NCBI RefSeq assembly: GCF_001458355.1
Contig: NZ_CYSA01000001.1
Location: forward strand, 1-60,832
Length of the DNA: 60,832 bases
DNA from: Thalassovita gelatinovora
Lineage (GTDB): Bacteria; Pseudomonadota; Alphaproteobacteria; Rhodobacterales; Rhodobacteraceae
Direction of reading: 5' to 3'
The translations under genes and the position numbers were made by a program. Below are positions 33,006 to 53,061 of the stretch, piece by piece. Numbering within the stretch: position 1 is the stretch's first letter; each line of letters begins with the position of its first letter. The notes under the pieces were generated by a model, which saw only the letters and a list, made by a program, of their open reading frames with translations, was not told the DNA's origin and did not search any database.

Positions 33006-34070
33006 CTAGCCCGCCAGACGTGCCGGTTGCGACCGGCGTTTTTCCACCGCCTGCGCCAGCTGTTTCAACGCAATCACCGTGTCGTCCCAACCAAGGCAAC
33101 CGTCGGTGATCGATTGGCCGTAGACAAGCGGCGCAGCGCCCAGATCCTGCCGCCCGGCCACAAGGTTGCTTTCCACCATTACTCCGGTGATGCGCCCGTC
33201 ACCTGCCGCGATTTGCGCGGCGATATCGGCCAGAACCAACGGCTGTTTTTCCGGGGCCTTACCGCTATTGGCGTGACTGGCATCTATCATCACCTGCGGG
33301 CGCAGACCGTCCTGTTGGGCCTTGCGGCAGGTGGTTTCAACCGAGGTCGCGTCGTAATTGGTTCCGCCGCCACCGCGCAGAATGACATGGCAATCGGGAT
33401 TACCACGGGTGGCGGCGATGGCGGCACGACCGTTTTTCCCCAATGCCATGAAGTGATGCGGCCGCGCGGCCGAGCGCACCGCGTCGATCGCGATCTGCAC
33501 ATTGCCGCGAGTGCCGTTCTTGAACCCGACCGGGCAGGACAGGCCCGAGGCCATTTCGCGGTGAATCTGGCTTTCGGTGGTGCGCGCACCGATCGCGGCC
33601 CAGGCCATCAGGTCAGAAATATATTGCGGTACCGCAGTGTCGAGGAATTCGGTCCCCACCGGCAGGCCCAGCCCGTTGATATCCAGCAGCAACCGGCGCG
33701 CCATGTCCAACCCTTCGTTGATCCGGAACGATCCATCCAGACCAGGATCATTGATCAGCCCTTTCCAGCCGCTGATGGTGCGGGGTTTTTCGAAATAGAC
33801 CCGCATGACGATTTCCAGCGTATCGGAAAGATCATCGCGCAGCGTCTTCAATCGCCGGGCGTAATCCATCGCGGCAACGGGATCGTGGATCGAACAGGGG
33901 CCGACGACAGCGATCAAACGATCATCCGCCCCCCTGAGCACGTTTTGAATGGCCGCACGCCCGTCCAGCACGGTCTGGGCGGTACCGGCGGCAACGGGCA
34001 GCCGCGCGGCCAGGTCTTCGGGCGAAACCAGCTCTTGCATGCTGGCGATACGCAGATTTTCGGTTTCCAT
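33006..34070 (-). CDS. aroG: 3-deoxy-7-phosphoheptulonate (DAHP) synthase, class I
   Basis: A 354-residue AroG/AroF/AroH-type enzyme; it joins phosphoenolpyruvate and erythrose 4-phosphate, the first step of aromatic amino acid synthesis. Seen: VVGPCSIHDP near residue 55, RVYFEKPRT near 90, GWKGLINDP (PEP site), TEFLDTAVPQY, GARTTESQIHREMASG, GFKNGTRGN, and C-terminal DASHANSGKAPEKQ with the metal His. It is typical in length. A GATAAGGAAG precedes ATG 34070. An aromatic-rich leader peptide and terminator upstream (34106-34272) indicate attenuation by Trp, Phe and Tyr charging. Feedback specificity is not readable. Confidence 0.95.
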   Translation of the reverse strand: METENLRIASMQELVSPEDLAARLPVAAGTAQTVLDGRAAIQNVLRGADDRLIAVVGPCSIHDPVAAMDYARRLKTLRDDLSDTLEIVMRVYFEKPRTISGWKGLINDPGLDGSFRINEGLDMARRLLLDINGLGLPVGTEFLDTAVPQYISDLMAWAAIGARTTESQIHREMASGLSCPVGFKNGTRGNVQIAIDAVRSAARPHHFMALGKNGRAAIAATRGNPDCHVILRGGGGTNYDATSVETTCRKAQQDGLRPQVMIDASHANSGKAPEKQPLVLADIAAQIAAGDGRITGVMVESNLVAGRQDLGAAPLVYGQSITDGCLGWDDTVIALKQLAQAVEKRRSQPARLAG

Positions 34071-34105
34071 TTTTGGGCTTCCTTATCGGGGCCCCGGGCG
34101 GACAT

Positions 34106-34130
34106 AAAAAAACCGCCCAGCGGGGCGGTT
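34106..34130 (-). terminator. Attenuator terminator in the aroG leader
   Basis: On the minus strand AACCGCCC (34130-34123) and GGGCGGTT (34118-34111) pair perfectly across a four-base loop and run into seven T residues (34112-34106), a textbook intrinsic terminator. It lies 35 bases before the aroG ATG, after the stop of the leader peptide, so it stops transcription before the gene rather than after one. Its 5' arm (34129-34124, ACCGCC) can instead pair with GGCGGT at 34186-34181. Confidence 0.85.
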
Positions 34131-34158
34131 GGTGTGATGTCTGCTGTCTGATCCTAGT

Positions 34159-34236
34159 TCAGAATGCGTTGACCCCTCCGACCGCCATTTGGCGCGGATA
34201 AAAATAAAACCAAACTGCGGCGAAGGTATGGGTCAT
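34159..34236 (-). CDS. Aromatic leader peptide controlling aroG (25 codons)
   Basis: ATG at 34236, TGA ending at 34159. The peptide begins MTHTFAAV and codons 9-13 read Trp-Phe-Tyr-Phe-Tyr (WFYFY), ending in VNAF. Such a run of three aromatic amino acids in 25 codons just before a terminator is the mark of ribosome-mediated attenuation. Just after the run, CGCC (34194-34191) can pair with GGCG (34186-34183). If the ribosome stalls on the aromatic codons, that arm is covered and GGCGGT is free to pair with the terminator's 5' arm, so aroG is read. No ribosome-binding site is seen; the promoter spacing suggests a leaderless start, as in rhizobial trpL. Too short for usual gene callers. Confidence 0.8.
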   Translation of the reverse strand: MTHTFAAVWFYFYPRQMAVGGVNAF

Positions 34237-34243
34237 GCGCCGG

Positions 34244-34272
34244 ACGCTAGCGGGGATTCGCGGCCTTGTCAT
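34244..34272 (-). promoter_or_regulatory. Promoter of the aroG leader
   Basis: On the minus strand ATGACA (34272-34267), a 17-base spacer and TAGCGT (34249-34244). The leader-peptide ATG begins seven bases past the -10, so transcription should start at or next to that A. The -35 is one base from consensus and the -10 is weak. Confidence 0.5.
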
Positions 34273-34322
34273 CCCGAAAAATGATCAAGCTGGCGCTGCC
34301 GGACAAAAGGCGGGCAAAGAAA

Positions 34323-34345
34323 AACCCCCGCCATTGGCGGGGGTT
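34323..34345 (-). terminator. Terminator after rplQ, end of the ribosomal region
   Basis: Minus-strand AACCCCCGCC-AAT-GGCGGGGGTT, then TTTCTTTG. Stem of ten, T-rich tail, 23 bases past the rplQ stop: a strong intrinsic terminator that insulates the ribosomal genes from the aroG leader. Confidence 0.85.
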
Positions 34346-34368
34346 CGACCGGTCCGAAACCGGAAATC

Positions 34369-52495: not shown

Positions 52496-52518
52496 GCTTT
52501 CTGTCTTCCGAATTGTAA

Positions 52519-52536
52519 GATGGGCCCCTGCCCATC
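52519..52536. promoter_or_regulatory. Hairpin in the rplB leader
   Basis: GATGGGC and GCCCATC, loop CCCT, 24 bases before the rplB start. The 489-base gap 52496-52984 otherwise shows only a GC-rich leader, the IS remnant at 52713-52832 and no other gene. The promoter for rplB must be in this gap. Confidence 0.4.
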
Positions 52537-52712
52537 CGGGTTATAGCCCCCTCGAGAGGTGACCAACTTGATAGGGCCCCGAAGGTCCCCGGCTAAAAAT
52601 CATGGGCCCCGGAACGAATCCGAGGCCACAAGATTGAGGCGATGTAGCAGAGAGGTCGGGGGGTGTCTATAGGAATAGGACGGCCTGCCAATACGAGGAA
52701 ACCTGGCGCTTC

Positions 52713-52984: not shown

Positions 52985-53061
52985 TGGCGGCCCCGGAAGG
53001 ACTTGAACCCTCAACCTCGGACTTAGAAGGTCCTTGCTCTATCCAGTTGAGCTACGGAGCC
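52985..53061 (-). tRNA. tRNA-Arg(UCU)
   Basis: A 77-base cloverleaf with encoded CCA. Acceptor GGCTCCG/CGGGGCC, D-arm GCTC/GAGC, anticodon loop CTTCTAA (anticodon TCT, reading AGA), T-arm GAGGG-TTCAAGT-CCTTC. Base pair 27-43 is an A-G mismatch; all else is normal. The AGA codon is rare in GC-rich genomes. It lies beside a truncated tRNA-Lys copy. Confidence 0.9.

Follow-up and report, generated by a model that had tools for sequence, protein, structure and literature searches.

DAHP synthase sets the entry of carbon into the aromatic pathway. A branched pathway with several end products can be controlled through one leader peptide, as in the enterobacterial ilvGMEDA leader, which serves the branched-chain amino acids and carries a ribosome binding site. 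The attenuators of proteobacteria are said to have been surveyed by Vitreschak et al. in 2004, in work that could hold part of the family described below, and the aroR-aroF attenuator of Corynebacterium glutamicum was reportedly first presented by Neshat et al. in 2014. In the available excerpts on this C. glutamicum system, a leader peptide with Phe-Tyr-Phe precedes the DAHP synthase gene (PMC11802643, PMC4046766). For Acholeplasma, the accessible part of one survey predicts a uORF attenuator, uORFC-13-1, before aroF, in which one or more Phe codons are combined with a terminator (PMC8632094). Single tables propose a putative attenuator before aroAI-alpha-Y > tyrA in Vibrio (PMC1173090, Table 7) and another upstream of Shewanella aroF (PMC2659441, Table 3), and gammaproteobacterial DAHP synthase genes, including those of E. 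coli, are described in a section of PMC5343134 as controlled by TyrR and TrpR. Attenuators of DAHP synthase genes thus have precedents, and the kind is already known. In Sinorhizobium meliloti, the trpL RNA has its 5' end at the leader ATG and is active in trans, as stated in excerpts of PMC7298713, which agrees with the statement in the original prediction for our locus that rhizobial trpL begins directly at the transcription start.

Here, we show by sequence reading, comparison of related loci, covariance modelling and RNA folding that the class I DAHP synthase gene aroG of Thalassovita gelatinovora is preceded by a leader ORF rich in aromatic codons, an intrinsic terminator ahead of the structural gene, and a pairing, 2:3, that is mutually exclusive with this terminator. 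All of these minus-strand elements are present, base for base, in the window, by which we mean the whole analysed stretch of 60,832 nucleotides (Table 1). The attenuator proposed by the original prediction is supported, as aromatic codons, arms and terminator are all conserved in relatives. From this comparison of sequences, aroG is very probably under ribosome-mediated transcription attenuation by aromatic tRNA supply, of the trp/phe/ilv type.

Table 1. Features of the aroG leader region, in positions of the window.
Feature	Position	Strand	Basis
aroG, class I DAHP synthase, 354 aa	33006..34070	(-)	TIGR00034, 1.5e-152, 507 bits
Shine-Dalgarno-like AAGGAA of aroG	34079..34084	(-)	read from sequence
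Intrinsic terminator 3:4 (AACCGCCC/GGGCGGTT) and seven U	34106..34130	(-)	terminator scan; covariation
Arm 3, ACCAACCGCC, antiterminator partner	34124..34133	(-)	CCGCC in 93/96 leaders
Leader peptide uORF, 25 codons and TGA, MTHTFAAVWFYFYPRQMAVGGVNAF	34159..34236	(-)	sequence; aromatic uORF conserved
Hairpin 1:2 (UCCG CGCC / GGCG ... CGGA)	34177..34198	(-)	86.8% of cells paired, no covariation
Arm 2, GGCGGUCGG, pairs with arm 1 or arm 3	34178..34186	(-)	GGCGG conserved
Regulatory codons 9-13, Trp-Phe-Tyr-Phe-Tyr	34198..34212	(-)	sequence; Trp9 in 18/18 distinct A2 rows
Predicted leaderless transcription start, A of uORF ATG	34236	(-)	C at -1, Shine-Dalgarno scarcity; inferred
-10-like box TAGCGT, 17-base spacer, 7 bases before ATG	34244..34249	(-)	promoter columns, 55 loci
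-35-like box ATGACA	34267..34272	(-)	sequence; TGACA-like hexamer conserved
Strong intrinsic terminator of rplQ	34322-34346	(-)	between rplQ and the aroG leader promoter

The naming of the gene as aroG for a DAHP synthase was borne out and could be refined to class I by TIGR00034. Its ATG lies at 34070. The AroG protein has no second match in its own genome at E<=0.001; a class II DAHP synthase, an addition to the original picture, is encoded on another contig of that genome (G000:C3:272346-273671, L002). Upstream of this class II gene, no aromatic uORF was seen by eye and no model match was obtained at E<=1e-4, and at the trpE match locus the 400 upstream bases likewise hold neither an aromatic-rich short ORF nor a model match at E<=1e-4. 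The gene adjoining the aroG leader on its upstream side is rplQ, whose own terminator sets the ribosomal operon apart from aroG. Elsewhere in the window, an L2-Alphaproteobacteria ribosomal protein leader (RF03142, 43.4 bits) is found at 52498-52564 (-) and a tRNA at 52988-53061.

Is the leader kept where the enzyme is kept? The comparison covers 113 class I aroG loci (the window and L003-L114), chosen by enzyme and not by leader, with 111 distinct AroG sequences (L016 = L100 and L083 = L114). They come from genomes of the family and the class, from three further members of the genus and from the 80 best named loci among 591 relatives; with this choice of named loci, distant DAHP synthases such as that of E. 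coli fall outside a sample that represents nearer relatives of the window's enzyme only. The window locus in its second entry (L001) and L115-L132 were left out of the aroG locus counts. At least 300 nt of upstream sequence were available for 110 loci, and 96 loci were parsed, having both a uORF score of at least 4 and a parsable terminator (in the AroG tree, 57 fall on the alphaproteobacterial side and 39 on the other); L064 and L102 have the uORF and no parsed terminator. The leader of a locus was defined as its ATG ORF of highest aromatic score, and as the shortest one among equals.

At 98 of the 110 loci, a short upstream ORF carries at least four Trp, Phe or Tyr codons within seven codons, a score reached by 22 of 1,916 control stretches of 320 bases from the same loci and by 2.6% of dinucleotide-shuffled upstream regions. 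The peptide of the original prediction, 25 codons with Trp-Phe-Tyr-Phe-Tyr at codons 9-13, can be read directly in the sequence, and its conservation in relatives, the check proposed with it, is thereby confirmed. Because the aromatic cluster is equalled in 1% of the window's own shuffles, it is conservation that makes the case against chance. In alignment A2, which excludes the divergent leaders L102-L104 of the same family (Tyr-Trp-Phe in another register), the ORF is free of gaps across its first 72 bases in 18 distinct rows; codon 9 is Trp in all 18, and codons 10-13 exchange Phe and Tyr, with few other residues. The synonymous share of codon differences is 24% in frame, 28% in frame +2 and 15% in frame +1. 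This test of translation thus shows no in-frame enrichment and is uninformative, and we infer translation from the conservation of the frame together with the class of the residues.

In most leaders, the peptide is 21-28 residues long. Examples are MTRTYAAFWYFFYPRHMADGGVSAF (Leisingera aquaemixtae), MITVATSYFWYFSYDSSLAAGGSRSI (Bradyrhizobium sp. 164), MNASCRSFYFWYYGFPMPLAEEGSRSP (Xanthomonas sp. F10), MSAKFYFYFFWHLRPLADREGKSYAG (Caballeronia concitans) and MHSFIFFTGYFYFSDSNPKAVE (Rugamonas rubra, the shortest choice of the script). In or near the cluster, all three aromatic residues occur in 71 of the 96 leaders, Phe and Tyr only in 24, and Trp and Phe in one; 18 of the 24 without Trp lie on the non-alphaproteobacterial side of the tree. 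Phe/Tyr runs without Trp are seen in L040, L043, L044, L050, L052, L057, L059 and L060, from Rugamonas, Janthinobacterium, Massilia and one Oxalobacteraceae bacterium, and the run of the Massilia leader L077 contains Trp. In Candidatus Burkholderia humilis (L069), the Phe/Tyr run is kept and the model matches at 46.7 bits, and beyond the run the leader is read in another frame than in its Burkholderia relatives, one that remains open for 48 codons and extends past where the terminator starts; leader regulation may be decaying in this symbiont. An Anaerolineae MAG (L064) has a class I aroG and an aromatic uORF (MSRYFSFFSWYGYF...) without a model match, which could reflect transfer, a binning error or an independent leader.

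Hairpin 1:2 begins at the last aromatic codon. Its originally predicted arms, CGCC (34194-34191) and GGCG, are present, and the hairpin turned out to be longer than proposed, as UCCG (34198-34195) can also pair with CGGA (34180-34177). The ability of GGCGGT (34186-34181, within arm 2) to pair either upstream or with the terminator arm ACCGCC (34129-34124) is there as complementarity and is conserved; ACCGCC belongs to the 3' part of arm 3, which is at the same time the 5' arm of the terminator. The terminator hairpin spans 34130-34111, and both sequence reading and the terminator scan agree with the prediction that it ends in seven T (34112-34106) and lies 35 bases before aroG. Of the 96 leaders, 90 have GGCGG 3' of the aromatic run. 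When the window leader is folded to its energy minimum, the 5' partner becomes longer still (-49.6 kcal/mol, z -4.36), and none of 200 shuffles is as stable.

Covarying stems had been suggested as a further check, and the outcome differs between the three helices: two of the nine pairs of 3:4 covary, 2:3 covaries little, and 1:2, though conserved, not at all. In the terminator, 22 cells are changed on both sides and 96.3% of cells are paired; the cell measures were reached in 0 of 500 shuffles and the pair-count measure in 168 of 500, in tests that are weakened by the relatedness of the sequences. The GGCGG:CCGCC core of 2:3 is almost invariant; the nine both-sided changed cells of this pairing lie at its edge (85.9% of cells paired), where 23 of 39 sequences leave pair 72/143 open. 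The energy of arm 2 with arm 3 has a median of -14.0 kcal/mol versus -10.3 kcal/mol with shuffled sequence, and tested one locus at a time this pairing is better than shuffled at p<=0.05 for 45 of the 96, an only moderately positive outcome. For hairpin 1:2, covariation was sought in A2 and none was seen, and the same holds for a longer-range 5' pairing; the hairpin is conserved in the window's family and well placed to be overlapped by a stalled ribosome. Comparative support for the predicted switch is good for 3:4, moderate for 2:3 and a matter of position only for 1:2.

Where would transcription of this leader begin? The promoter-like pair of the original prediction, with an ATG seven bases later, is present in the sequence, and a generic sigma-70 scan returned no site; the boxes are too weak for such a scan, and the promoter assignment therefore relies on conservation. 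In 47 of the 57 parsed loci on the alphaproteobacterial side, a TGACA-like hexamer begins at -36 or -35 from the uORF ATG. Directly before the leader ATG, 90 of the 96 leaders have a C, and Shine-Dalgarno-like 4-mers stand before the leader ORF at 3 of 96 loci, compared with 82 of 94 for aroG itself. The signs of a leaderless start are thus kept in relatives, and promoter spacing, C at -1 and the scarcity of Shine-Dalgarno-like sites together make it likely that transcription in Alphaproteobacteria starts at the A of this ATG; for the window we hold a leaderless start to be highly probable. On the other side of the tree, C at -1 is the only prominent feature (35/39), with no fixed -35 or -10 column, and a leaderless start outside the Alphaproteobacteria is less certain. 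Published transcription start sites exist for Bradyrhizobium japonicum USDA 110 (PMC4842269), and the locus occurs in other members of Bradyrhizobium.

The mechanism suggested by these parts would work as follows. RNA polymerase would start at the ATG of the 25-codon leader, or one to two bases from it, and ribosomes would translate the leader from this leaderless mRNA. A shortage of charged Trp, Phe or Tyr tRNA would slow the ribosome within codons 9-13, where it would cover the 5' side of hairpin 1:2 and leave arm 2 free; arm 2 (GGCGGU) could then take arm 3 (ACCGCC) as it is made, so that no terminator would form and aroG would be transcribed. With all three plentiful, the ribosome would run over arm 2 or be released, arm 2 being covered or held in 1:2, and arm 3 would pair with arm 4 and transcription stop at the U-run.

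We examined the position of the ribosome in a folding model in which the leader is folded up to arm 3 while the ribosome footprint and all sequence 5' of it are held unpaired; the model ignores kinetics, and for the window the footprint edge was set 10 bases past the A-site codon. The probability that arm 3 is held by the uORF is 0.73-0.75 with the A site at codons 2-13, then falls to 0.51 at codon 14, 0.33 at codon 15, 0.11 at codon 16 and about 0 from codon 18, a drop that comes just after the last aromatic codon; without a ribosome it is 0.0. Across the 96 loci, the mean falls from 0.66 in the aromatic run to 0.14 over the four final codons, and stalling in the run raises the probability in 80 loci and lowers it in 3. 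At footprint edges of 8 and 10, the run never ends beyond the permissive zone, and at an edge of 13 five of 96 loci exceed it by one codon. In many loci this zone extends past the run (median 4.5 codons at edge 10), so that a cut-off as sharp as the window's is no general rule, and in L004, L012, L032 and L041 the free RNA already favours 2:3 (0.64-0.70), which leaves the default state of these relatives less clear. In the model, a ribosome sitting in the aromatic run favours the antiterminator.

How widely is the leader distributed? Class I AroG is uncommon, with 17 of 394 family genomes and 14 of 385 class genomes encoding it (the own genome is in both counts), and the attenuator can therefore not be general in the family. 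All 17 family genomes with class I AroG have an aromatic uORF and a model match, 15 of these leaders being in the training set. The covariance model was trained on 39 alphaproteobacterial leaders, and at E<=1e-4 it matches 101 of the 113 class I aroG loci at full length; 39 of these are the training sequences, and the leaders of L013 and L016 are identical to trained ones. No training sequence comes from the non-alphaproteobacterial side of the AroG tree, so the 39 of 49 loci matched there (34.6-96 bits) constitute an independent test. They include Bordetella genomosp. 2 (96 bits), Dyella sp. OK004 (88.6), Xanthomonas sp. F10 (83.5), Burkholderia sp. D-99 (65.7) and Rugamonas rivuli (60.3). 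Five loci that fail the uORF score match the model (L045, L053, L062, L069 and L106, 46.7-57.1 bits). Twelve of 113 lack a full match: L083, L091 and L114 have too little upstream sequence, and the nine with enough are Vibrio injensis (L086), Aeromonas veronii (L093), Solimonas flava, Candidatus Glomeribacter gigasporarum and five MAGs (in all L036, L064, L065, L066, L074, L079, L086, L092 and L093).

Across the scanned genomes, strong matches are linked to class I aroG. In its own genome, the window leader scores 106.6 bits and the next match 33.7 bits; the latter was considered as a second leader and rejected as an ordinary terminator after a gene whose product we take, from its sequence, to be helicase-like. 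Twelve further matches there reach 24.1 bits or less. Among 240 class genomes, 58 have a match at E<=0.01; in six of them the score exceeds 96 bits, and each of these six yielded a class I AroG, whereas every other match is at or below 33.7 bits. In one of the six (G585), leader and aroG are on different contigs, the aroG contig beginning 172 bases before the match. No match came out of a plasmid search with the leader. A record named Mycobacterium sp. KBS0706 (L031) has an alphaproteobacterial-type aroG with the leader, and the name of this record may be wrong.

In the AroG tree, a branch with 99/97 support has the alphaproteobacterial enzymes on one side, and leaders occur on both, before related genes in Alphaproteobacteria, Betaproteobacteria and Xanthomonadales. 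The uORF label needs eight changes on this tree, and the leader-less rows L036, L065, L079, L086, L091 and L093 group together, L091 having only 58 upstream bases. The simplest reading would be a single old origin of the leader, with losses.

Does the leader respond to all three aromatic amino acids? We regard it as rather probable, on the codon evidence, that all three are effective, and the original proposal that one peptide senses all three is helped by the fixation of Trp9 in all 18 A2 rows together with the Phe/Tyr exchange at codons 10-13. There is a smaller, still appreciable chance that the attenuator is real and responds to one or two amino acids, the other aromatic codons being passengers. 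The C. glutamicum aroR leader (FYF) gives such a picture, since in the accessible text Phe limitation induces and Tyr availability does not (PMC11802643), and the 24 of 96 leaders without Trp near the cluster point the same way; the constancy of Trp9 while its neighbours swap Phe and Tyr, and the 71 of 96 leaders that have all three residues, speak against it. By analogy with rnTrpL/peTrpL, the terminated leader of about 130 nt, the peptide or both might also act in trans, which we consider unlikely. The apparent leaderless design recalls the trans-acting trpL RNA of S. meliloti as excerpted in PMC7298713, and the sequence downstream of the aromatic run is also conserved within the window's family, but this conservation falls mostly in the RNA arms and needs no role in trans.

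Readings without an aromatic sensor fare worse. A ligand riboswitch, T-box or protein-bound leader with an incidental short ORF would equally account for a terminator with an alternative partner; it is very improbable, given that neither the window leader nor those of eight relatives match any such Rfam family at its gathering score, that the aromatic run recurs at 98 of 110 loci across three classes, and that this run always lies inside the ribosome-permissive zone at edges of 8 and 10 nt. Hardly credible at all is a chance ORF beside an unregulated terminator of the upstream rplQ transcript: the 1% of shuffled upstream regions that match the window's aromatic cluster leave it some room, but rplQ has its own terminator at 34346-34322, and the element stands before class I aroG in 101 of 113 loci. 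That a model built from 39 leaders reaches these 101 loci, with 39 of 49 on the other side of the tree, argues for an attenuator and against chance. Beyond aromatic attenuation itself, we find it a long shot that one undescribed RNA family of single origin in three groups combines a leaderless gate for three products with trans action of the leader or its peptide. If true, the family would have been inherited with class I DAHP synthase, and one leaderless peptide would gate entry into the whole aromatic pathway.

The mechanism is classical; the combination of features is unusual and its spread is wide. Compared with the Rfam 15 leader families, Trp_leader and Phe_leader included, the window leader and those of the eight relatives have no match at the curated gathering thresholds. 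Among the literature matches listed, the portions available hold no description of a leaderless Trp, Phe and Tyr attenuator before a proteobacterial aroG, and the excerpts of PMC2965389, PMC4842269, PMC4833913 and PMC1262725 describe no such leader. The earlier remark that this is not a standard textbook case holds in this respect, as these sources offer no leaderless proteobacterial example, and needs tempering in another, as DAHP synthase attenuators are known elsewhere. The family is compact and can be found with one covariance model while having no Rfam 15 match. It would explain the regulation of aroG in several groups at once and help to annotate a conserved short peptide gene, and the existence of leaders with and without Trp offers a natural test of the amino acid specificity of attenuators. 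One short RNA apparently covers all three end products here, a task that falls to TyrR and TrpR in E. coli.

In conclusion, how does the aroG leader compare with known systems? Like ilvGMEDA, it would read several end products through one leader peptide; ilvGMEDA differs in serving the branched-chain amino acids and in its ribosome binding site. Compared by description, from excerpts, C. glutamicum aroR-aroF is alike in having an aromatic-codon leader before a DAHP synthase gene, and transcription there rises when Phe is limiting, as it would for aroG; it belongs to an actinobacterium, and its reported motif has no Trp codon. Acholeplasma uORFC-13-1 shares the predicted uORF and terminator before a DAHP synthase gene, and differs, in the part of the survey available, by its ribosome binding site and by its restriction to Acholeplasma and environmental sequences (24 unique; PMC8632094). 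In Vibrio and Shewanella, attenuation upstream of class I DAHP synthase genes has likewise been proposed, as predictions only in the tables cited above, but the Vibrio injensis and Aeromonas veronii loci do not match the present model. Closer in taxonomy, uORFC-8-2 is a conserved uORF attenuator from Rhodobacterales, the order of the window's relatives, although according to the same excerpts it has Cys codons and precedes cysS (PMC8632094). Finally, S. meliloti trpL-trpE(G) is an alphaproteobacterial attenuator whose RNA starts at the leader ATG, as predicted for the aroG leader, and it differs, as far as the excerpts of PMC7298713 describe it, in being a Trp leader with another target gene.
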